DNA from: Mesorhizobium sp. YM1C-6-2
Lineage (GTDB): Bacteria > Pseudomonadota > Alphaproteobacteria > Rhizobiales > Rhizobiaceae
Assembly (NCBI RefSeq): GCF_003666685.1
Contig: NZ_RCIZ01000012.1
Location: 1 to 64,000 of the forward strand
DNA: 64,000 bases
Direction of reading: 5' to 3'
The stretch's first letter is position 1; each line of letters opens with the position of its first letter. Both the position numbers and the translations under genes were made by a program. Under the pieces are notes generated by a model. The model was not told where the DNA came from. It saw only the letters and a list, made by a program, of their open reading frames with translations, and made no database searches. Below, piece by piece: positions 3,800-28,788 of the stretch.

Positions 3800-4516
3800 T
3801 CAGCAGGAAACGGCTGGCACGCTCTCTTGTCCCTGTGCCTGCACATCAAGGCGCGCCAGCATGTTGCGGACGTTCGAGACCTGCCATGTGCCGCCGCGCG
3901 CCGTACGCACGCCGCGGGCATTCAGCTCCGCCGCAAGCCCGCGCAGGCTTGTGATCCCCGCCTGCTGCAGGGCACGAACGAACGGAAGGGTCGACCGGGC
4001 GAACTCCTCGGCCGCCTGTATGGCTGCGCCTCGACCCCGGGCTGCAGCCTGCGCCGCGTTCGTCCTGTTGCCGAGCGTGGCGCCCAAGGCCTTGCGGGCC
4101 GCCAAGGCTGCCCGGGTTCGCTCCGATATCAGCCGGCGTTCCTTCTCTGCCAGCGCCGCATAGAGGTGCAGCATGAACGGGTCGGCATCCGCGCCAAGCT
4201 CGGTGACGATGAACGGCACGCGCCGCGTCATCAGCCCGGCAATGAAGGCCACGTCTCGCGAGAGCCGGTCTAGCTTTGCGACGATCACCGGACAGTGGGC
4301 TCGATGAGCGGTGGCGAGTGCCGCAGCCAATACGGGTCGCCGATCCAGAGCGTCGGAGCCCTTGCCGGTTTCCACCTCGGTGAACGCCTCCAGGATGTCG
4401 TACCCTTGCGCTCTGGCAAAGTCCTCGACAGCGGCACGCTGGGCGTCGAGGCCGAGGCGGGACCGGCCCTGCCGCTGGGTCGACACACGGTAGTAGGCGA
4501 TTGCGCGCTGCAACAT
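3800..4516 (-). CDS. Serine recombinase (resolvase/invertase type)
   Basis: This 238-residue site-specific recombinase has an N-terminal resolvase domain starting AIAYYRVST, with the nucleophilic serine at about residue 12. Further motifs are LDRLSRD and [12 protein letters not shown]. The C-terminal ~60 residues ([15 protein letters not shown], then [11 protein letters not shown]) form a DNA-binding helix-turn-helix. I chose the ATG at 4516 because it directly precedes the conserved beta-strand and has GAGG upstream; an extra N-terminal extension to 4639 lacks homology. It lies 137 bases upstream of the methylase. A perfect palindrome 20 bases before the start may be its binding or recombination site. 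It probably resolves or moves the element. Confidence 0.92.
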
Positions 4517-4535
4517 GAATGAGCCTCGGGTGTTC

Positions 4536-4561
4536 AGACTGCAAACCAGCGTTTGCAGTCT
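4536..4561. promoter_or_regulatory. Perfect palindrome before the recombinase gene
   Basis: Eleven-base arms (AGACTGCAAAC and GTTTGCAGTCT) are separated by CAGC. The repeat lies in the leader of the minus-strand recombinase, 20 bases before its start codon. Resolvases commonly bind palindromic sites overlapping their own promoters, so this could be an autoregulatory operator or part of a res site. The sequence symmetry is directly visible; the function is inferred. Confidence 0.6.
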
Positions 4562-4938
4562 GCTCACAAGGCGCTGAAACGCAAGTAAGCTATTGATTTC
4601 GATTGCTATCGGCCCACGAGGACTTCGTGCACTGCGCATCGCCTTCCCCGTGGCGCCGCGATCGGTGGCGAAGGCAGCCTGGCCGGCAGTTCGGAATTGC
4701 GTGCACCGTGTAGCGATAGCCGCCCTTTTTTAGACGGGACATTCCCCCGTGGGCACTCTGACGTGCTGTGCGGCCCACAAGAGCTCGGCACCTGCTGTTA
4801 GGCTGCCAGCAGCGCGATCATCGCAGCAGCGCCCAACAGTGACACCCCGTTTCGGCTTGTCCTCAAGTCTGGGTGAGCACAGGAACGTTTGATCGGCCGG
4901 ACAGTTGTTCAGGCACGTCATCGGCAGAGGAGAACGAG
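4562..4938. other. Gene-free interval between recombinase and EF-hand gene
   Basis: About 380 bases hold no reading frame with a credible ribosome site or recognisable product. It must contain divergent promoters for the recombinase (minus) and the EF-hand gene (plus), but I see no strong sigma-70 pair. Confidence 0.5.
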
Positions 4939-7204: not shown

Positions 7205-8254
7205 TCAGCCGGTCGCCTCTGCAGTGCTCGTCCTTATCTTCTTATCGATCTTATCGTCAGCCTTGATCAGGTCGGTGCGATCCGGGTGGACGTAGCCGCC
7301 GCGGCCGGCTTTCCGAACCTCTCCGGCCTTTCCCATCTTGAACAGCAGCTGATCGACGTTGTTCCGTGGCATGGCGGTTGCTATCGCGATCTCGCGTGGG
7401 CTTATCGGAGCATCGGCAGCAAGAAGTGCCGATAAGATTCGGGAGCGTTCATCCGTCCTTCTTATTTCGGCGGCTTCACCGATAAGATTCCACATACCGG
7501 ATAAGAAACTCATCGCGCTTTCCTTCTCCTCCACATCCCGGCCGCGAACGTAGAGCGTGGTGCCGTTACCGTCGCGATCGAGCAGGAGCGTCGTGTCGGC
7601 GCAGGCGGACAGGCCGTTGGAGCCGCTGAGCGCCTCCAGGGGATCGTCGGCGCCACCCTTTCGGGTATGATGGAGACAGAGCACTGCAACGCGGCGCTCT
7701 GTCGCCCAGCGCTGCAAGGCAGACATCGCGTCATAGTCGCTCTCATACGAATTCTGGCCAGCCTTGCCGGCAGGCTTGATCCGCTGCAGCACGTCGATGA
7801 CGACCAGCCTGGGTTCGATGACGGATGACCGCCAGTCATCTAGAGCGGGTAGAAATCCTTTGTTGAGATCAGGGGCGTCGTTGACCCAGCCCAGCCGTCC
7901 GAGATCCGGTCGGTTGCGTTCGCCCGGGAACAGCATGTTGATGCGGCCCTGTATCCGGCGGTGGCCATTCTCCAGATCGATGTACAGCACATCGCCGACC
8001 TCGCAGAAGACCGAGCCCATGGCCGCGCCTCCTGTGGCGACGGCGATGGCCCAATCCAGCGCCAGCCAGGTTTTGCCCAGCTTCTGGCGGCCGGCAAGGA
8101 TGGATAGTCCCTCGGGCAGATAGTCAGGCACCACCCAGCGGATCGGGGCGAACTGGGTCGCCATGATCGTGTTGGTGTTCGTAACCACGAAGCGGGCGCT
8201 CCCGGCTTTGTCTCTTTCGTAGTGGGACACGGGTATCGGTGCGAGGTTGTTCAT
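7205..8254 (-). CDS. RepA/DnaB-like AAA ATPase of phage replication type
   Basis: The 349-residue protein has a RecA-fold ATPase domain. Walker A is AGRQKLGKT at 54-62, Walker B RLVVIDVLQ at 149-157, and LCLHHTRKGG at 192-201 is the sensor-like motif typical of AAA_25/RepA helicases. A winged helix follows at about 270-325 (SPREIAIATAMPRNNVDQLL), and the tail is lysine-rich. This family unwinds or primes replication origins of phages and integrative elements. Its start overlaps the preceding stop (ATGA), and it is the last gene of a minus-strand operon headed by an AlpA-like protein. That is the usual replication or excision cassette of alphaproteobacterial integrated elements. Confidence 0.9.
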   Translation of the reverse strand: MNNLAPIPVSHYERDKAGSARFVVTNTNTIMATQFAPIRWVVPDYLPEGLSILAGRQKLGKTWLALDWAIAVATGGAAMGSVFCEVGDVLYIDLENGHRRIQGRINMLFPGERNRPDLGRLGWVNDAPDLNKGFLPALDDWRSSVIEPRLVVIDVLQRIKPAGKAGQNSYESDYDAMSALQRWATERRVAVLCLHHTRKGGADDPLEALSGSNGLSACADTTLLLDRDGNGTTLYVRGRDVEEKESAMSFLSGMWNLIGEAAEIRRTDERSRILSALLAADAPISPREIAIATAMPRNNVDQLLFKMGKAGEVRKAGRGGYVHPDRTDLIKADDKIDKKIRTSTAEATG

Positions 8255-9308: not shown

Positions 9309-9392
9309 ATTTGTGACGCATCGGCGGACAGGACGAAGCGATTCCAATGCCGTCACATTCCGTTTGTGACATCGCCCGTCTGGTTTGTGACA
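9309..9392. repeat. Cluster of TTTGTGAC repeats
   Basis: TTTGTGAC (the first copy as ATTTGTGAC) occurs on the plus strand at 9309-9317, 9363-9370 and 9384-9391. GTCACA occurs in the opposite orientation at 9352-9357. Two of the copies also encode the repeated VTN motif at the C terminus of the QueC-like protein. The cluster lies 115-200 bases upstream of the AlpA-like gene, as expected for an operator or iteron array. The function is inferred only. Confidence 0.55.
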
Positions 9393-11236
9393 TGGGCTGG
9401 TAAATCGGCCAAAGATACCTCACGGAGCTCGGGGGAAAGCCGGTACCCTTTGGACTTTTGATTCTCGATAAAACCATTCGGAAACATCACGCCGTGGTCG
9501 ACGGCTAGCCGGGCTTCTGCATCTTCGCGCAGCCGCACCACTTGCCGGCGAAGCGTCGATTCCTCAATACCCAGCGCCGCCGCGAGGTCGTCGGTCCAAT
9601 AGAATGGAACCTCCTCGGCGCGGCTTTTGGCGTCGCGGTGCCGGCCCAGAAGTTCCCGCATCAGCCTGTAAAGAGCTCCTTCGATGACAAAACCGCCTTT
9701 GAAGCAAATCCTCCTTCCAGCTTCGTCGATAGCGAACTCGCAGCTGGCAGCGGACAAGTCATCCAAGAATGCGGCCGTCTTCGATGTCGTATCGGGACCC
9801 ACCAGTTGCACATTGCCTCGCGTGAAGCAGAGATTGAGCAGGGACGTCGACGCGAGCCTGCCCCGGACCAGGTCACCGACATGGCGTTCCGTAGCATCAG
9901 CAATTACGGCGAGGACGCCCTGCGCGTGATGCCGGTGCAGGTCCCAGACGCGTTCCAGCACCTCGTCTGCTGACAGACCGGGCACATTGTGCAACGCTGA
10001 GCAGACCTGCGGAAACTCTTCCTGAAACTGGTCGCGGTGCAGTCTTTCGATTGTGCGCGCGAACGTCACATAGGCGACGGACGGGTCGATGTCCTCGTAC
10101 CGTCGATCGCCCGTCAGCAGATCGACTCGGTAACCGTCGCGGACATCATGGTGCTCGACACCCGCCGCCAGAACCGCAAACCGCCGATCGATGCATTGAG
10201 AGCATGCACCACAATGCCGGACCTCTGCGGTCCAGCCGATCGGATGAACGCAACTGACGCTCTTTGCCAGCAGGCTGCCGTGACCTGTCGATTCGAGCCG
10301 CTCGACGACCTCCTTGCGGGTCAGCCAGAGGAAGGGCGTCTCGATCGAGATGTCTCTGTCCACGAGTGCTGAGAAGAATTGTTCGAAACCGCGGATTACC
10401 TTTGGGTGAGTGGTCCGCGTGGCGCGCGCGCCAAGCACATCGGCAGCGATCGGCAGGTTGAGGCTGACGACGCCGTTCTCGTAGAAGGTGAAGCCGTCGC
10501 GGCCAAACATGCGGGCGAGCACGAACGCGAGGCTCGCGAATAGGAAAGAACGGGTACGTTGCGTGGGCTCGACGGGTCGGACGCCCGTGTTGGTGACGTT
10601 GACCGTCACGTGGAACAGTTGGCTGCCAAAGCCTTTTTGCCGAAGCTCCTCGGCCAGTTCGGTCTGCACATTCACAACCTTGGGCGCCGAATGGTGGCCG
10701 ACCAGGACAAGTCGCCTGCCACCGACGAGGCTCTCAACGGCGCCCGTGAGCGAATCCATGCCTCCCGAGAACAGCACGACGTCATCCGCCTGGAACCCGT
10801 CGCCACTCTCGGAGAATTCGAAATAGGTCTGCGCCTGCTCGGCAGGTGCGTGGCTGTCGACGAATTCCATCACGTAGACGTCATCGGACAGATAACCGAG
10901 CATTGCTTCTAACCGTTCGCGAACAGCCGCGCTCTCCCATATGTCACGACATCGAACCGGCACAACGAAGTAAAGCTTGCGCCTCCATGCCTCTCCGGCC
11001 ATCGACAGCTTCTCGGTTCCGCGTCTTGCCCGCTGATCGGCGCAGTAGACGTAGGCGGCCAGTTCCAGCAAATCGATCAGGAGATCAGGCAGATCGCTGA
11101 CGAGGGCGCGGTTGGCGTCTGCCAGCCGCAGATTGACGTTTCGATCCGGTCCCGCGACATTCATCCGGAAAACTTGATCGACGGAGGCGAGGTCCGGGGC
11201 AATCGCCCCTCCGCAGATGAAGGCGTATTCCTTCAT
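9353..11236 (-). CDS. QueC-like PP-loop protein with winged-helix C terminus
   Basis: This 627-residue protein contains a QueC-like domain in its middle. The PP-loop nucleotide-binding motif SGGMDS is at 157-162, and the zinc ligands Cys329, Cys342, Cys345 and Cys348 are arranged as C-x12-C-G-A-C-x2-C. Housekeeping QueC, which makes preQ0, is only ~230-240 residues. Here ~150 residues precede the motif and ~275 follow, ending in a winged helix (about 545-600, ending KGYRLSPEL). Enlarged QueC-like proteins are known in defence loci (QatC of Qat; type IV CBASS), so a role in antiviral nucleobase or protein modification is plausible. Its start overlaps the stop of the 264-residue partner (ATGA), so the two form one unit. 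There is no QueD, QueE or QueF gene nearby, arguing against a queuosine operon. Confidence 0.85.
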   Translation of the reverse strand: MKEYAFICGGAIAPDLASVDQVFRMNVAGPDRNVNLRLADANRALVSDLPDLLIDLLELAAYVYCADQRARRGTEKLSMAGEAWRRKLYFVVPVRCRDIWESAAVRERLEAMLGYLSDDVYVMEFVDSHAPAEQAQTYFEFSESGDGFQADDVVLFSGGMDSLTGAVESLVGGRRLVLVGHHSAPKVVNVQTELAEELRQKGFGSQLFHVTVNVTNTGVRPVEPTQRTRSFLFASLAFVLARMFGRDGFTFYENGVVSLNLPIAADVLGARATRTTHPKVIRGFEQFFSALVDRDISIETPFLWLTRKEVVERLESTGHGSLLAKSVSCVHPIGWTAEVRHCGACSQCIDRRFAVLAAGVEHHDVRDGYRVDLLTGDRRYEDIDPSVAYVTFARTIERLHRDQFQEEFPQVCSALHNVPGLSADEVLERVWDLHRHHAQGVLAVIADATERHVGDLVRGRLASTSLLNLCFTRGNVQLVGPDTTSKTAAFLDDLSAASCEFAIDEAGRRICFKGGFVIEGALYRLMRELLGRHRDAKSRAEEVPFYWTDDLAAALGIEESTLRRQVVRLREDAEARLAVDHGVMFPNGFIENQKSKGYRLSPELREVSLADLPAHVTNQTGDVTNGM

Positions 11237-12027
11237 GCCGCGAGACGTCCGCTGCGGCGGTTCAGTTCAAGCCTGATCTTAGTGAAGGCATAGGCGGCGA
11301 GGGCGGCTGCGTCCTCCCGCGTGAGTTCCTTGTCGAGATGAAATCGATACTTGCCCAGCCAGTCTCTGGCGAACGCCCGCATGATGATCGTCGTCTCCCG
11401 GCAATGCCGCCGAACCGCCTCATCGAAATATTCCGCGTCGGCCACCGAAGCCAGCGCATGTCCAACACCGAGCTGGCGCGGCACCTCGCGATCAAGAAAA
11501 TATCGGATATGCCCCCGCAGGACATTGGTGAAGAAGGCCTGGGCCAGCTCGCCGAAACGCGTAGTCGACGCGAAACTGGCGATCGTCGCGCGCTCGTCCT
11601 CCGCTCCTGACACCCACAGGCTTGGTCCCCGGTCGCGCACAAGCCCGGCAAGGGCAGAGATCGCAGCGTCCCGCGCGATAAAGGCGAAGTCGGAAAAGCC
11701 GACAACACTGCGCTGCCGGAAACGTTCGAAGGCTGCCTCGAAACCGGCAATGAGATCGGCGAGGCCGGCATCGGCCGGTACATGAATTCCTAGCGCCTGG
11801 ACGGCGGCTTCGCGGTCTTCCGCTGCAACGGCCTGTGGAAGCTTCAGCAGCAACCAGAAGGACTCGACGAAGCCAGGATCCTGCACCGCGGTCGAAAGCG
11901 ACCGATCGGCGCTTCGCTCCACAGCGGCGGCGATGTCGGCGATCACCAGCCGGCGAGCCCCAAGGAGCTCAACCACCTCGCGCCAGTTCCGTGTTGCGGG
12001 TGGTTTGCCCAGCCTGATGTGACCCAT
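11233..12027 (-). CDS. Partner of the QueC-like protein, unknown function
   Basis: The 264-residue protein begins MGHIRLGKPPATRNWREVVELL. I know no named family; I have an impression of similar MGHIRLG starts beside QueC-like genes but cannot verify it. It is mostly helical and lacks signal or transmembrane segments. Charged motifs include RRHCRETTIIMRAFARDWLGKY at about 205-225 and a basic C terminus (RLELNRRSGRLAA). Removal of Met1 would leave an N-terminal glycine, as in QatB proteins. That may matter if the QueC-like enzyme modifies protein N termini; this is a hypothesis. The ATG at 12027 has GGGGGAG upstream. Stop-start overlap with the QueC-like gene implies fixed stoichiometry. Confidence 0.8.
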   Translation of the reverse strand: MGHIRLGKPPATRNWREVVELLGARRLVIADIAAAVERSADRSLSTAVQDPGFVESFWLLLKLPQAVAAEDREAAVQALGIHVPADAGLADLIAGFEAAFERFRQRSVVGFSDFAFIARDAAISALAGLVRDRGPSLWVSGAEDERATIASFASTTRFGELAQAFFTNVLRGHIRYFLDREVPRQLGVGHALASVADAEYFDEAVRRHCRETTIIMRAFARDWLGKYRFHLDKELTREDAAALAAYAFTKIRLELNRRSGRLAA

Positions 12028-12140
12028 GGCTCCCCCCTGGATGTCACCTCGGTACGCCAGAGCTTCCCGGAGCAGAGTTTACGTCATCGTTGACCGGACC
12101 CGGCGCATATGAAGACATTTTTGTGGAGTTGCTTTCGTTT

Positions 12141-12438: not shown

Positions 12439-12893
12439 CCATTTCCGACCCCATTCCCGCGCGCCTGGCTGCGTTGAAGACCGGCCCCATGACCGACCTC
12501 AAACAGCAGTGGCGGGACCTTTTCGACAGCGAGCCGCCCCCCTTCAATCGCCGCTACCTCGAAAGCCGGCTGGCCTATCGCATCCAGGAACTCGCCTATG
12601 GCGGGCTGCATCCCGAGACCATCCGGCGGCTGGAGCGGCTCGGCGAGCAACTGGACGGCGGCAATGGAACGACCCGCCGCATCCGCGCGGACCGCGACAA
12701 ACCGATCACCGGCACACGGCTCCTGCGTGAATGGCTGGGCGTCGAGCATGTCGTGACCGTCACCGCTGACGGCTTCGAATGGCAGGGGCGGCCCTACAAG
12801 TCGCTGTCGGCCATCGCCCGCACCATTACCGGCACGCGCTGGAACGGCTGGACCTTCTTCGGCCTCAGGAACCATCGCAGGGGAGGGGCATGA
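12435..12893 (+). CDS. DUF2924 protein
   Basis: The 152-residue protein matches the DUF2924 pattern. An N-terminal helical region (MTDLKQQWRDLFDSEPP, then RRYLESRLAYRIQELAYGGL) is followed by a C-terminal beta-rich half with TRLLREWLGVEHVVTV, GFEWQGRPYKSLSAIARTITG and WNGWTFFGL. The C-terminal part resembles a small DNA-binding or HARE-like clamp, but no function is established. It overlaps the recombinase gene by ATGA. Constant pairing with a large serine recombinase suggests a helper in integration or excision. Confidence 0.88.
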   Translation: MTISDPIPARLAALKTGPMTDLKQQWRDLFDSEPPPFNRRYLESRLAYRIQELAYGGLHPETIRRLERLGEQLDGGNGTTRRIRADRDKPITGTRLLREWLGVEHVVTVTADGFEWQGRPYKSLSAIARTITGTRWNGWTFFGLRNHRRGGA

Positions 12894-14215
12894 CCATACC
12901 CTCGGAGAAATCGAAGGTCGTGCGCAAGCTGCGCTGTGCGGTCTATACTCGCAAATCCTCGGAGGAGGGGCTGGAGCAGGAATTCAATTCTCTCCACGCA
13001 CAGCGCGAGGCCTGCGAGGCCTACATTGCCAGCCAACGCTCCGAAGGCTGGGTGCTGGTCCGCGACCGATATGACGACGGCGGCATCTCCGGCGCCACGC
13101 TGGAGCGACCCGCCCTCAAACGGCTGCTGGCCGACATCGATGACGGGCTGGTCGATGTGGTGGTGGTCTACAAGATCGATCGCCTGTCGCGCTCGCTGAT
13201 GGACTTCGCCAGGCTGGTCGACGTCTTCGACCGCAATGGCGTCACGTTCGTCTCCGTCACCCAGTCCTTCAACACCACCACATCGATGGGCCGGCTGACG
13301 CTGAACATCCTGCTCTCGTTCGCCCAGTTCGAGCGCGAGGTGACGGCCGAGCGCATCCGCGACAAGTTCCGCGCGTCTCGTATGAAGGGAATGTGGATGG
13401 GCGGCGTGCCGCCGCTTGGCTACCGGGTCGAAAACCGGAAGCTGGTGGTCGACGAGGAAGCCGCCGCGCATGTCCGCTGGGTTTTCGACCGCTTCCTCGA
13501 GGTCGGTTCCGGCACGGTGCTGGCGCGCGAGGCATCCAACAGAGGCATGCAAACCCGGCAGGGAAAACCGATCGACAAGAAGTATCTCTACCGGACGCTG
13601 AACAACCGCGCCTATATCGGCGAGGCGGTCCATAAGGGTGCCAGCTATCCGGGCGAGCACGAGGCCATCATCGATCGGGACACGTGGGACCGGGTTCACG
13701 CCATCCTGCAGGAGAGCCCGCGCAAACGCGCCGCCCACACACGGGCCGACACGCCGGCGCTGCTGAAGGGGCTGCTCTATGGTCCTGACGGCGCAGCGTT
13801 CTCTCCAACCCATACGCGCAAGGGCGGGCGACTGTACCGATACTATGTAAGCCAGACAGTGCTTAAGCATGGGGCCGGGTTGTGCTCGGTTGGCCGCGTG
13901 CCGGCAGGGGAAATAGAAGCCGCCGTCATCGATCAACTTCGCGCCGTGTTCCGCCAGCCCGAGATCGTGGCGGGGACATGGAAGGCGGTCTGCGCGGCAG
14001 ATAGCGACATCACCGGGGAATACGCCCGCGACGCGCTGAACCGCCTCGATCCAATGTGGGGTGAGCTCTTTCCTGCCGAGCAGGCGCGCATCGTGGCGCT
14101 GCTGGTCGAGCGCGTCGACGTCGGCACCGACGGGCTCAACGTCCGGCTCCGGGTCGACGGCCTTGGTGGGCTTGCGCGCGAGATGCTTGCGGGTAACCTG
14201 GAGCAAGCCGCATGA
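12890..14215 (+). CDS. Large serine recombinase
   Basis: The 441-residue enzyme starts at the ATG at 12890, coupled to DUF2924. The resolvase catalytic domain covers about residues 13-160: CAVYTRKSS with the nucleophile near Ser23, then YDDGGISG, YKIDRLSRS and FEREVTAERIRDK. A recombinase domain (about 175-275, LGYRV, then LNNRAYIGEAVHKG) follows, with a ribbon region at about 300-360 (YGPDGAAFSPTHTRKG). That region lacks the usual zinc-binding cysteine pairs. Large serine recombinases integrate and excise phages and elements between short att sites without high-energy cofactors. This is the intact integrase of the module and is probably responsible for one of the insertions in this region. 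Confidence 0.93.
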   Translation: MTIPSEKSKVVRKLRCAVYTRKSSEEGLEQEFNSLHAQREACEAYIASQRSEGWVLVRDRYDDGGISGATLERPALKRLLADIDDGLVDVVVVYKIDRLSRSLMDFARLVDVFDRNGVTFVSVTQSFNTTTSMGRLTLNILLSFAQFEREVTAERIRDKFRASRMKGMWMGGVPPLGYRVENRKLVVDEEAAAHVRWVFDRFLEVGSGTVLAREASNRGMQTRQGKPIDKKYLYRTLNNRAYIGEAVHKGASYPGEHEAIIDRDTWDRVHAILQESPRKRAAHTRADTPALLKGLLYGPDGAAFSPTHTRKGGRLYRYYVSQTVLKHGAGLCSVGRVPAGEIEAAVIDQLRAVFRQPEIVAGTWKAVCAADSDITGEYARDALNRLDPMWGELFPAEQARIVALLVERVDVGTDGLNVRLRVDGLGGLAREMLAGNLEQAA

Positions 14216-14849: not shown

Positions 14850-17729
14850 ATGGGAATTAATTTTATTAGCTGTCCTGAATATACTAAATACTCGGGATTA
14901 GGGAAACCTTCATCAAGTATTGTTGGATTGAAACTAAGCACATCATGTATTGCGCTGGGCATTTCCTGCCTCATGCAGCAACCCGCGTCGGCGGCCGAGT
15001 ATCTCGTGTCCAGCGAAGCCCAGCTGCGCGACACGCTCGCCGACCTCTCCGACGGCACAAATCCCGACCCCAGTGCGGTAATCATCCTTCAGAACGATAT
15101 CGCGGTTTCGGCGACGCCCCTTCCCACAATCACCAAGTCGCTGACGATCGACACCGGCAGCTTCACCCTGTCCGCCAGCGGGGATACCGTTCTCGACGTT
15201 GAAGCCGGTCAAACGCTCACCGTGAACGGCAATATCGCCGGCTCCAATCTGTTTACAAAGGCGGGTGACGGGATCGCCGTATTTACCGGGTCATCAGTCT
15301 ATAGCGGCATTTATACTGTAAACGAGGGAGTCGTCGAATATCGGGATGGCGCTCAGCTCAATACGGAAACTAGTTCTCCCACTATAAATGTGGCGCGCGG
15401 CGCCGGATCGAGCGGAAGCCTTCTGGTGACCGGCCCGGGGACGGTATTATATGGTCCACTTGATCTGGCGAGCGGAGCCAACTCGCAGGCGCTTGTCGAA
15501 ATCACCAACGGCGGAGCAATCATATATAACGGTACCGATGGCCTGAGAGCCAGCACGGGGGCAGGCAGCACATCCTCGGTGATTGTCAGCGGCGCAGGGT
15601 CCTTGCTTGAAGCCACAAGCCGTATAGAATCCGGGTATTCCTCTGAAGCCTTCTTCACGGTTCTGGATGGAGGGCGCATCAACTCAGGGCGTGTAGACTT
15701 CGGCGGTCATTCTTTTCTGAATGGCGTATCCACCATCGGCGTGGTTTCCGGCGCGGGTTCGACCTGGGAAAGCAGTGGAACATTCGGCGTCTTCAACGGC
15801 TCCCTTTCCGTTCTCGACCAGGGCCAGGTAACGGCCACGGCCCTCGATATAGCGGCGGGTTCGGGGCGTGCCGCCGAGGTTTTTGTCTCCGGCGCAGGAT
15901 CAAGCATCACTACGACCACGGGCAACGTCCGGATATCGACTTCGTCCGGCCAGGGCGAACTTACCGTCGCTCAGGGTGGCAGGGTGACGGTGAACGATGG
16001 CGCCGGGACCATTGCCATCACGAGTAGTGCGAGCGGTCGTGGCGTCCTCAATATCGGCGGCGGCGAGGGAGAGGCCGCGCAGGGCGCAGGCTTCATCGAA
16101 GCCGCAAGCATCAATTTCGGCGCGGGTGAGGGCGCCATCATTTTCAACCATACCGAGACCGGCTACAATTTCGACATCCCGATCATCAGCAACGCCGATG
16201 GCAACGGCGCGATATACCAAGCCGCCGGGCGGACGATCTTCAACATCGACCAACTGGGGTTCACCGGCTTTACCAGCGTCTATGGCGGCACTCTCGAGGT
16301 GAACGGCGCGCTGGGCGGGGTGATGAACGTTTTTGGCGGCACGCTGGCCGGCATCGGCGCGGTCGGCCCGACCAGCCATACCGGCGGCAACATCGCGCCC
16401 GGCATCGCCGGCGTGAACAATGGCCTCGGCGACCTGACGATCGCCGGCGATTACAACGGCCAAGGCGGCGGGGCGCTGCTGATCGATACGGTGCTCGGCG
16501 GCGATGATTCGCTCACCGATCATCTCATCATCACGGGTAATACGCAGTTCGGCAGCAACAATTCCGACGGCAATCCGACGCAGGTCTTCGTCACCAATCT
16601 GGGCGGCGTTGGCGGACAGACGGTCAACGGCATCAGGATCATCCAGGTAGACGGCGCCTCACAAGCGGGCCTGTTTACCCTGGGCGCGCCGGCGATCGGC
16701 GGCGCCTATCTCTACGGTCTCTTCCAGGGCACGCCCACTGTCGTCGACGGCGACTGGTACCTGCGCACGACCGATATCCTCGCCCCGACGGTGCCGGTCT
16801 ACGAGAACTACCCGATCGTGATGCTCGGCCTGACCGAACTGCCGACCCTCCAGCAGCGCGTCGGCGACCGCTATTGGCCGGGCGACGAGGTCGCCGACGC
16901 GGCGGCGGGCTATGCCGGCCCGCGCAATTTGTGGACCCGGATCGAAGGCGCCCACGGCCATGTCGAGGGGGAGTCGACCACCGGCGCTTCCTATGACAGC
17001 GACCGCTTCCTGCTGCAGGTCGGCATCGACGGGCTGCTCGCCGAGAACGGCTCGGGCAGGCTGATCGGCGGCTTCAACGCGCAGTATGGCCGGGTCGACG
17101 CCGACATCTCGTCGGACACCGGCAGCGGCGACAGTTCGACCGACAGCTACGGCGTCGGCGCGACGCTGACCTGGTACGGCAATGACGGCATCTATGTCGA
17201 CGGCCAAGCCTCGGTTAATCGACTGTCGAGCGATCTTTCCGCCGACGCCGTCGGCGATCTCGCCGACGGCAATGACGGCGTCGGTTACGCCTTCAGCATC
17301 GAGGCCGGCCGCAAGATCGGCGTCGGCGGCAGTTGGTCGCTCACCCCGCAGGCGCAGCTCGCCTACACCTCGGTCGATTTCGACGACTTCACCGATCCGT
17401 TCGGCGCCACCGTCTCGCTCGACAGTGGCGACAGCCTGAAGGGCCGGATCGGCGTGGCGCTGAACCATGACGCGGCCGACGCGGACCGCCGCAGCCATGT
17501 CTACGGCATCGCCAATTTGACCTACGAGTTCCTCAACGGAACGGCGGTCGACGTGGCCGGCGTCAACGTCGCCTTCGAGCCGGACTCCTTCGGCGCGGAG
17601 CTCGGCGTCGGCGGTACCTATCGCTGGGCCGGCGGAAAATACGCGCTTTACGGCGAGGCGCTCGCCTCGACCAGCTTCGAGGGCAGCCATGGCGTCAAGG
17701 GGACGCTCGGCTTCAGCACAAGATTCTAG
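14850..17729 (+). CDS. Autotransporter outer-membrane protein
   Basis: The 959-residue protein has an extended signal peptide ending near residue 49 (QQPASAAE). The passenger (about 50-680) is a Ser/Thr/Gly-rich beta-helix with repeated SGAGS and GGxI motifs, and GTLAGIGAVGPTSHTGG, IAPGIAG and LTIAGDYNGQGGG blocks typical of autotransporter-associated strands. A C-terminal beta-barrel spans about 690-959, with alternating strands and a terminal phenylalanine (FSTRF). It would be secreted by the type V route to the cell surface, perhaps as an adhesin. The first ~1.3 kb is AT-richer with rare codons, while the end from about 16.2 kb is GC-rich, suggesting a mosaic gene. The ATG at 14850 has GGCGGG upstream. 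Confidence 0.93.
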   Translation: MGINFISCPEYTKYSGLGKPSSSIVGLKLSTSCIALGISCLMQQPASAAEYLVSSEAQLRDTLADLSDGTNPDPSAVIILQNDIAVSATPLPTITKSLTIDTGSFTLSASGDTVLDVEAGQTLTVNGNIAGSNLFTKAGDGIAVFTGSSVYSGIYTVNEGVVEYRDGAQLNTETSSPTINVARGAGSSGSLLVTGPGTVLYGPLDLASGANSQALVEITNGGAIIYNGTDGLRASTGAGSTSSVIVSGAGSLLEATSRIESGYSSEAFFTVLDGGRINSGRVDFGGHSFLNGVSTIGVVSGAGSTWESSGTFGVFNGSLSVLDQGQVTATALDIAAGSGRAAEVFVSGAGSSITTTTGNVRISTSSGQGELTVAQGGRVTVNDGAGTIAITSSASGRGVLNIGGGEGEAAQGAGFIEAASINFGAGEGAIIFNHTETGYNFDIPIISNADGNGAIYQAAGRTIFNIDQLGFTGFTSVYGGTLEVNGALGGVMNVFGGTLAGIGAVGPTSHTGGNIAPGIAGVNNGLGDLTIAGDYNGQGGGALLIDTVLGGDDSLTDHLIITGNTQFGSNNSDGNPTQVFVTNLGGVGGQTVNGIRIIQVDGASQAGLFTLGAPAIGGAYLYGLFQGTPTVVDGDWYLRTTDILAPTVPVYENYPIVMLGLTELPTLQQRVGDRYWPGDEVADAAAGYAGPRNLWTRIEGAHGHVEGESTTGASYDSDRFLLQVGIDGLLAENGSGRLIGGFNAQYGRVDADISSDTGSGDSSTDSYGVGATLTWYGNDGIYVDGQASVNRLSSDLSADAVGDLADGNDGVGYAFSIEAGRKIGVGGSWSLTPQAQLAYTSVDFDDFTDPFGATVSLDSGDSLKGRIGVALNHDAADADRRSHVYGIANLTYEFLNGTAVDVAGVNVAFEPDSFGAELGVGGTYRWAGGKYALYGEALASTSFEGSHGVKGTLGFSTRF

Positions 17730-26428: not shown

Positions 26429-27976
26429 ATGTCCCGCGAAAAATTCTACATCACCACGCCCATCTTCTATCCCAACGGCAAGCCGCATATCGGGCATGCC
26501 TATACGGTCATCGCCACCGATGCGCTGGCGCGCTTCCAGAGGCTCGACGGTAAGGACGTCTTCTTCCTTTCGGGCACCGACGAGCACGGGCTCAAGATGC
26601 AGCAGACGGCCGAGAAGGAAGGCATCGCGCCCAAGGAGCTCGCCGACCGTAACTCGGCGATCTTCCGCGACATGGAAGCCGCGCTCGGCGCGTCCAACGA
26701 CGACTTCATCCGCACCACCGAGGAGCGCCACTACAAGGCCTGCCAGGCGATCTGGGAGCGCATGGCCGCCAATGGCGACATCTACCTCGACCGCTACAGC
26801 GGCTGGTACTCGGTCCGCCAGGAAGCCTATTTCGACGAGAGCGAAACCACCGTCGGCGACGACGGCGTGCGCCGCGAGCCGCTGGGGTCGCCGGTGGAAT
26901 GGAACGAGGAGGAGAGCTATTTCTTCCGGCTTTCCGCCTACCAGGACAAGCTGCTGGCCCTGTATGAGGGGACACCGGGCTTCGTCGGTCCGCAGGAGCG
27001 GCGCAACGAGGTCGTCAGCTTCGTGAAGTCCGGGCTGAAGGACCTGTCCGTCTCGCGCTCGACGTTCAACTGGGGCGTGCCGGTCCCGGGCGACGAGAAG
27101 CATGTGATGTATGTCTGGGTCGACGCGCTGACCAACTACATAACGGCGGCGGGATATCCGGACACCTCGAACGAGAAGTGGAGCTACTGGCCGGCGACCC
27201 ACATCATCGGCAAGGACATCGTACGCTTCCACGCGATCTACTGGCCGGCCTTCCTGATGTCGGCGGGGATCGAGCTGCCGAAGCGCGTTTATGCGCACGG
27301 CTTCTTGTTCAACCGCGGCGAGAAGATGTCGAAATCGGTCGGCAACGTGGTCGACCCGTTCGCGCTGATCGAGCATTACGGGCTCGACCAGGTGCGTTAC
27401 TTCTTCCTGCGCGAGGTGCCTTTCGGTCAGGACGGCAGCTATAGCCACGAGTCGATCGTCAACCGCACCAATGCCGACCTCGCCAACGATCTCGGCAATC
27501 TGGCGCAGCGCTCGCTGTCGATGATCGCCAAGAACTGCGGCGGCCTGGTGCCGGCAAAGGGCAGTCTCGCCGAGGCCGACAAGACGATCCTTGGCCAGGC
27601 GGCGGACGCGTTGGTCACGGCGCGCAAGGCAATGGCCGAGCAGGCGATCCACCAGGCGTTGGCTGCCATCTTCGGCGTCGTCGCCGAGGCGAACCGCTAC
27701 TTCGCCGGGCAGGAGCCGTGGGCGCTGAAGAAGACGGATCCGGCGCGCATGGAGACCGTTCTCTGGACCACGGCCGAGATCATCAGGCGGGTCGGCATCC
27801 TGTGCCAGCCATTCGTGCCCGGATCGGCAGCCAAGCTGCTCGACCTGCTGGCGGTGCCGGAGGATGAGCGCAGCTTCGCGCATGTCGCCGACGCGCATGC
27901 GCTGGTGTCGGGCACGTCGCTGCCTGCGCCCACGCCCGTCTTCCCGCGTTATGTCGAGCAGGCCGAGGAAGCCTGA
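26429..27976 (+). CDS. metG: Methionyl-tRNA synthetase
   Basis: The 515-residue class I synthetase charges tRNA-Met. The start at ATG 26429 gives the family N terminus [20 protein letters not shown]. The ATP-binding HIGH motif is at 20-23 and KMSKS at 299-303. The tail is an anticodon-binding helical domain without the C-terminal tRNA-binding extension, which matches the ~510-residue class found in rhizobia. The gene is followed after five bases by the TatD-like gene. A longer frame to 26348 lacks homology. Confidence 0.97.
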
Positions 27977-27981
27977 CGTCC

Positions 27982-28788
27982 ATGCCCGAGATGACGCTCG
28001 TCGACAGCCACTGCCACCTCGATTTCCCCGACTTTGCCGAGGAGCGGGCGGCGGTGGTCGCGCGGGCGAAAGCCGCCGGCGTCGGCCATATGGTGACCAT
28101 ATCGACGCGCGTCCGGCGCTTCGCGCAGGTGCTTTCGATCGCCGAGGAGTTCGACAACGTCTTCTGCTCGGTCGGCACGCATCCGCACAATGCGGCGGAA
28201 GAACTCGATGTCACCGCCGAGGAACTGGTGCGGCTATCGGCGCATCCGAAGGTGGTGGCGATCGGCGAGGCCGGGTTGGACTACCACTACGACAAGTCGC
28301 CGCGCGACGCGCAGATGAAGGGTTTCCGCACCCATATCGATGCTGCTCGGCGGACAGGGCTGCCGCTGGTCATCCACGCGCGGTCTGCCGACGAGGAAAT
28401 CGCCTCGACGCTCGAAGAGGAGACGGCGAAGGGTGCATTCCCGTTCGTGCTGCACTGTTTCTCGTCGGGACGCGAGCTTGCCCGCACCGGCGTGAAGCTC
28501 GGTGGCTACGTTTCCTTCTCCGGCATCCTCACCTTCAAGAATTCCGAGGAACTGCGCTCGATCGCAGCCGAGGTCCCGCCCGACCGGCTGCTGGTCGAGA
28601 CGGATGCGCCTTACCTTGCCCCGGTGCCGCTGCGCGGCAAGCGCAACGAACCGTCCTATGTCGTCAACACGGCCAAAGTCCTTGCTGAGACAATCGGCGT
28701 AAGTGACGAAAAAATATCGGAAATAACGACTACGAACTTCTTTCGGCTGTTCTCCAAGGCAGCCAAGGCCGTACGGCAGGACGGCTGA
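27982..28788 (+). CDS. TatD-family metal-dependent hydrolase
   Basis: The 268-residue protein is a TIM-barrel nuclease of the TatD/YcfH family. The metal ligands are recognisable in VDSHCHLDF at the N terminus, GEAGLDYHYD, HCFSSG and ETDAPYLAP. Family members act as 3'-5' exonucleases in DNA repair or RNA turnover. Its position directly behind metG and before the metallo-beta-lactamase-fold gene (three-base gap) is the common metG-tatD-MBL arrangement of proteobacteria, so it is housekeeping and not part of a Qat system. Confidence 0.94.
   Translation: MPEMTLVDSHCHLDFPDFAEERAAVVARAKAAGVGHMVTISTRVRRFAQVLSIAEEFDNVFCSVGTHPHNAAEELDVTAEELVRLSAHPKVVAIGEAGLDYHYDKSPRDAQMKGFRTHIDAARRTGLPLVIHARSADEEIASTLEEETAKGAFPFVLHCFSSGRELARTGVKLGGYVSFSGILTFKNSEELRSIAAEVPPDRLLVETDAPYLAPVPLRGKRNEPSYVVNTAKVLAETIGVSDEKISEITTTNFFRLFSKAAKAVRQDG

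Follow-up and report, generated by a model that had tools for sequence, protein, structure and literature searches.

The two adjacent genes analysed here, which come from Mesorhizobium sp. YM1C-6-2 and encode a 627-residue protein (QC) and a 264-residue partner (PB), quite probably represent a naturally minimal, diverged form of QatB-QatC that serine-integrase prophages carry as cargo and that most likely protects the lysogen from other phages. Within the Qat kind, the pair makes up a two-gene variant that is described in none of the papers searched, preprints and most subscription journals being outside the scope of that search. The defence role is likely, given the kinship of the two proteins and their genomic setting.

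Both genes lie on the minus strand of the window, that is, the whole 64,000-nt stretch of contig NZ_RCIZ01000012.1 that was analysed, within a phage-derived neighbourhood.

9353..11236, minus strand: ORF of QC, 627 aa, QatC-like
11233..12027, minus strand: ORF of PB, 264 aa, QatB-like partner
12030..12038, minus strand: Shine-Dalgarno-like sequence AGGGGGGAG upstream of PB
12779..14215, plus strand: the prophage's integrase, a large serine recombinase oriented divergently to PB (PHROG 95 integrase, 5.6e-111)
7205..8254, minus strand: downstream phage replication ATPase, DnaB-like (PHROGs 6357 and 19)

The ORF list and the junction sequence confirm the first-pass annotation of two translationally coupled ORFs: the stop codon of PB and the start codon of QC overlap in ATGA, with the junction reading GGC ATGA AGG, and the ribosome site before PB was graded strong. 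A second, small resolvase/invertase is encoded inside the element (3800-4639, minus strand), which suggests nested mobile DNA, and a 959-aa autotransporter-like protein (14850-17729, plus strand) adjoins the integrase end of the element.

The identity of QC as a QatC homologue is well supported. It matches QatC in PADLOC (4.9e-52) and QueC in Pfam (PF06508, 2.2e-10), and the solved structures nearest to it by sequence are those of QatC (5e-28, or 3.3e-58 using a 61-member profile). A Foldseek search with the AF2 model of QC (mean pLDDT 87) returned the QatC chain 9y01_B at an E value of 2e-21 and a TM score of 0.77 over 467 columns, QueC and Cap9 being ranked far below. The QatC fold thereby extends over core and extensions, the whole architecture consisting of a QatC core, a shared helical extension up to about residue 470 and a C-terminal winged helix. 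The following sites are found within QC.

10751..10768, minus strand: PP-loop SGGMDS, residues 157-162 (SGGxDS invariant in 61 aligned members)
10403..10420, minus strand: TRTTHP, residues 273-278, aligned with the substrate-site loop of QatC (T278/T280/H282)
10193..10252, minus strand: zinc-site cysteines 329, 342, 345 and 348, invariant in 61 members
9404..9748, minus strand: OmpR/PhoB-type winged helix with KGYRL, residues about 497-611, from AF2 secondary structure

The PP-loop and the four cysteines are where they had been placed from the sequence, but profiles, structure search and motif alignment all relate the protein specifically to QatC and not to QueC-like proteins in general. In the profile alignment to QatC 9vlk and 9zee, and in the alignment with QatC from other genomes of the order, TRTTHP aligns without gaps with STRTTHP of QatC, placing Thr-x-Thr where QueC and Cap9 have the Tyr/Asp clamp for deazaguanine. 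The residues taken as QatC signatures from PMC13279940 and PMC13329287 are present as D67-R72-W84-R86, RTRSFLF, ENG, TRTTHP and CGxCxxCxxRR, corresponding to the QatC motifs D..R..WxR, RxRSxxF, ENG, TRTTHP, TK and CGxCxxCxxRR, with the T-K pair reading T-R in the window's copy. QueC has the PP-loop and zinc site in common with QC, but QC bears N- and C-terminal extensions and scores only 31.1 bits against TIGR00364 (QueC), under the cut-off of 150.3. Among the recurrent neighbour families of PB-QC loci there is no queuosine gene. Score, active site and gene context together rule out a canonical QueC.

QC also differs from ordinary QatC. It is about 200 aa longer and bears a C-terminal module, reaches 200 bits against NCBIfam QatC (NF041925), under the equivalog cut-off of 280, and falls into a separate clade: in a FastTree phylogeny rooted on one divergent QatC-like protein, the QC (76) and ordinary QatC (15) sequences form separate groups with support of 0.64 and 0.98, respectively. 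A divergent QatC-like protein at L047:9458-10846 (plus strand) has SDGLDS and NHP instead of SGGxDS and THP, and adjoins a 191-aa ORF and a 396-aa ORF resembling a putative HTH protein.

The partner had been annotated as belonging to no known family. By sequence this is what is seen, as Pfam, PADLOC, NCBIfam, PHROGs, PDB sequences and hhalign gave no family for PB, QatB sequence profiles did not match it, and profile-profile comparison with QatB yielded a probability of 4%. The predicted fold tells otherwise. The AF2 model is all-helical with a pLDDT of 90.5, and in a Foldseek search of 350,542 PDB chains the QatB chains 9y02_A and 9y01_A were, among the matches listed, the sole ones at a probability of 1.00, the next best listed chain standing at 0.35; nothing in a viral structure library exceeded 0.41. 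The alignment to QatB covers 258-262 columns with TM scores of 0.47/0.57 and an E value of 0.08. Because this E value is weak, the assignment is founded on the probability, the full-length coverage and the fact that a QatC would be expected to have precisely a QatB as its partner. A remote, diverged QatB is well supported for PB as modelled, the likeness being structural only, and a wholly new family is ruled out by the fold search. It follows that the PB-QC pair would be a relative of Qat rather than an unrelated system.

11998..12027, minus strand: N-terminal motif MGHxRLGxLP of PB, conserved in partners, with Gly2 exposed once Met is removed

The N-terminus of PB, MGHIRLGKPPATR, is short, conserved and predicted to be disordered, residues 1-5 having a pLDDT under 50. 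Essentially all full-length PB proteins begin with MGHxRLGxLP, and the Met-Gly start noted at the outset proved to be general: among the 137 partners whose MG start could be read, Gly2 is found in 137, His3 in 133 and Leu6 in 136, consistent with modification of the N-terminus. At least two of the remaining proteins appear to use GTG or TTG before GH. Conservation of MGH in a segment predicted to be disordered favours the defence model. As in Qat, the QatB-fold protein is encoded adjacently upstream of the ligase and has an N-terminal Gly, although MGH..LG.LP and a short tail (about 12 residues before the first helix) stand in place of the MGTS motif and the long disordered tail of 30-90 residues found in QatB.

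The pairing is conserved well beyond the window. Scans of GTDB contigs and of IMG/VR yielded 171 and 90 relatives of QC, respectively, from each of which 80 were retained. Of these 160 loci, 154 are usable and every one has PB immediately upstream of QC; in the other six the contig begins at QC. Random sampling shows the pair to be rare, with 4 carriers among 151 relatives and 2 among 398 genomes of the phylum, the window's genome being included in both counts. Bauldia litoralis has two PB-QC cassettes on separate contigs (L102 and L103). As had been surmised, the pair occurs without qatA and qatD: two profiles, derived from ordinary Qat loci found in the same order and each recovering nine control loci (five used in building the profile and four not), matched QatA (KAP NTPase) in one of the 160 loci and QatD (TatD) in none, at least 4 kb of flank being available on both sides in 78 of them. 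Within the window there is no match to the QatA or QatB profile. The claim that no Qat ATPase or TatD is present is accurate for the cassette but not for the whole window, where the sole TatD match (27868-28785), 16 kb from the pair, is probably a housekeeping protein. The absence of A and D rules out a full qatABCD system. The idea of a minimal, separate system accordingly stands in that this is a two-gene unit of its own without QatA and QatD, but not in the sense of separateness from Qat, since the partner is QatB-like.

The cassette likewise resembles type IV CBASS in placing a PP-loop ligase of QueC fold beside a protein whose N-terminal Gly is invariant, but has no CD-NTase, and the partner fold is unrelated. 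The first-pass statement that a CD-NTase is missing applies to the cassette; the genome's sole SMODS match (G000:C1:2988-3473, 2.3e-39) lies on another contig, C1, on which there is no QueC-family match. Type IV CBASS is ruled out by this separation.

The neighbours of the pair are phage genes, and the earlier placing of the two genes in mobile DNA, as a unit of their own, is supported. The pair occupies a slot between the serine integrase and the replication genes of prophages, with a divergent large serine recombinase in 78 loci and, downstream, an AAA ATPase, helicase, primase, ParB-methylase and small terminase subunit. When prophages were instead sampled by their AAA gene, the slot was mostly filled by other modules; among 68 complete slots, PB-QC is present in 38 and other modules in 30. 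These alternatives include two uncharacterised pairs, one of 395+312 aa (or its fusion) and one of 413+316 aa, as well as XRE/ImmA pairs matching CapH/CapP, the regulators that PADLOC lists with CBASS, and none of the recurrent ones occurs in the 38 PB-QC slots. The 395+312-aa pair (L227:6741-8832, plus strand; fused as 724-749 aa at L266:2539-4788, plus strand) often lies behind CapH/CapP-like regulators, matches nothing in Pfam or PADLOC and is a candidate new defence module. The 413+316-aa pair (L267:5173-7324, plus strand) fills this slot at five loci in related prophages and has no family match.

This position could also suit a regulatory role, and it speaks against the defence model that the pair adjoins the integrase and that no CI-type repressor was noted in PB-QC slots. 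The pair might then be the prophage's own lysogeny/immunity switch, in which QC, as a winged-helix repressor or activator, depends on modification of PB. Consistent with such a switch are the location of the cassette, which points away from the integrase and lies between it and the early replication operon, the winged helix that ends most QC proteins, and the fact that PB-QC and XRE+ImmA modules are never in one slot. Against it, the trees of PB and QC match each other rather than those of the integrase and the replication ATPase. Distances of PB and QC correlate with r of 0.85-0.92, whereas those of PB reach 0.44 with the recombinase and 0.24 with the AAA ATPase, and those of QC 0.49 and 0.41; the unit therefore travels jointly between prophages, apart from the phage backbone, as cargo would. 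This mirror-tree test and the slot survey also weaken the view of PB-QC as a core phage gene. In addition, the characterised relatives are defence proteins, and the copy on a Leptospira plasmid has a nuclease domain instead of a winged helix, so that we regard a lysogeny switch as quite unlikely.

The C-terminal module is variable. In the window's QC, the AF2 order of strands, three helices and a hairpin is that of an OmpR-type winged helix, and the profile of the L200 group matches it weakly but colinearly; no direct family match for this domain was above the cut-off. The winged-helix ending proposed earlier is thus backed by the topology of the model and by 4 of 61 members that match Trans_reg_C (best 1e-9), but not by a match of QC itself. 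Past residue about 470, the tails divide into a set of 113 that resemble the window's, another of 33 drawn chiefly from beta-proteobacteria and other phyla, and some minor sets. The Leptospira noguchii plasmid, which also bears the PB-QC pair, encodes a QC (L049:7815-9680, plus strand) whose C-terminal module is a DpnII/MboI-type nuclease domain (1.2e-9) and not a winged helix; a scan with this QC as query gave no matches. Such variation, and the nuclease domain in particular, would accord with a toxin-antitoxin or abortive unit in which infection leads to death of the host and the C-terminal module acts as effector, yet the commonest module is the winged helix, which has no known catalytic site, making host killing rather improbable.

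In Qat itself, QatB and QatC alone suffice against lambda, and Gly2 of QatB and the Ser/Thr active-site residues of QatC are essential (PMC13279940). For the preferred defence reading, PB would bind QC, and removal of Met would let the Gly2 amine enter the QC active site, where QC would use ATP to activate a carboxylate and couple it to Gly2. Once modified, either PB or the complex as a whole may then block the infecting phage, and the winged helix may contact DNA or another partner. The model for this chemistry is Cap9, which attaches CDG in an ATP-driven reaction (PMC11996544). CDG attachment has been proposed for Qat (PMC13279940, PMC13329287). The 2026 structure paper states as an open question what QatC attaches and to what effect, the reaction not having been reconstituted (PMC13279940).

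The suggestion of an N-terminal deazaguanine on PB gains from the invariant Gly2, but is weakened by the Thr-x-Thr motif and by the gene content of the genome. CDG synthesis requires QueD and QueE. In the window's genome, which is 100% complete, QueC, QueD (PTPS) and QueE have no match over the cut-off. Eight of 35 PB-QC genomes (the window's genome, Bauldia, Antarctobacter, Roseisalinus, Aquamicrobium, Seohaeicola, Rubellimicrobium and Defluviimonas) lack both PTPS-family QueD and QueC over the cut-off, and both are likewise missing from 5 of the 18 genomes that carry ordinary QatC, at least two of these five (L041 and L043) having full qatABCD; completeness figures exist for some but not all of the genomes. 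The two QueE models applied fail as well in the eight, QueE being so diverse that two models may miss some forms; in two of the five, a QueE model finds a weak match below threshold. All 13 retain the tRNA transglycosylase, which shows that the searches work and makes salvage of queuine-type bases likely. From the missing QueD and QueC, a host-made CDG donor appears unlikely as a general rule on sequence grounds, and a host-made deazaguanine as the group joined to PB would probably not hold across all hosts.

It is therefore unlikely that QC deazaguanylates Gly2 of PB with CDG exactly as Cap9 does on its CD-NTase. The shared PP-loop and zinc site, the invariant N-terminal Gly and the same proposal for Qat would agree with it, and CDG could come from another source, the infecting phage included; the replacement of the CDG-recognising Tyr/Asp pair by Thr-x-Thr and the genomes without QueD and QueC oppose it. 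Somewhat short of an even chance, in our estimate, is the broader proposal that QatC-family ligases, with this prophage-borne pair as a natural minimal form, attach to Gly2 of the partner a group other than a host-made 7-deazaguanine, either another carboxylate or a deazaguanine that only an infecting phage supplies. In the phage-supplied variant, if true, modification of Gly2 would itself be the report of infection.

PB-QC offers a small test object that is independent of qatA and qatD and occurs in genomes showing no queuosine synthesis genes, and it argues, on phylogenomic grounds, against host-made CDG as the universal donor. Its swappable C-terminal modules may reveal which step stops the phage.
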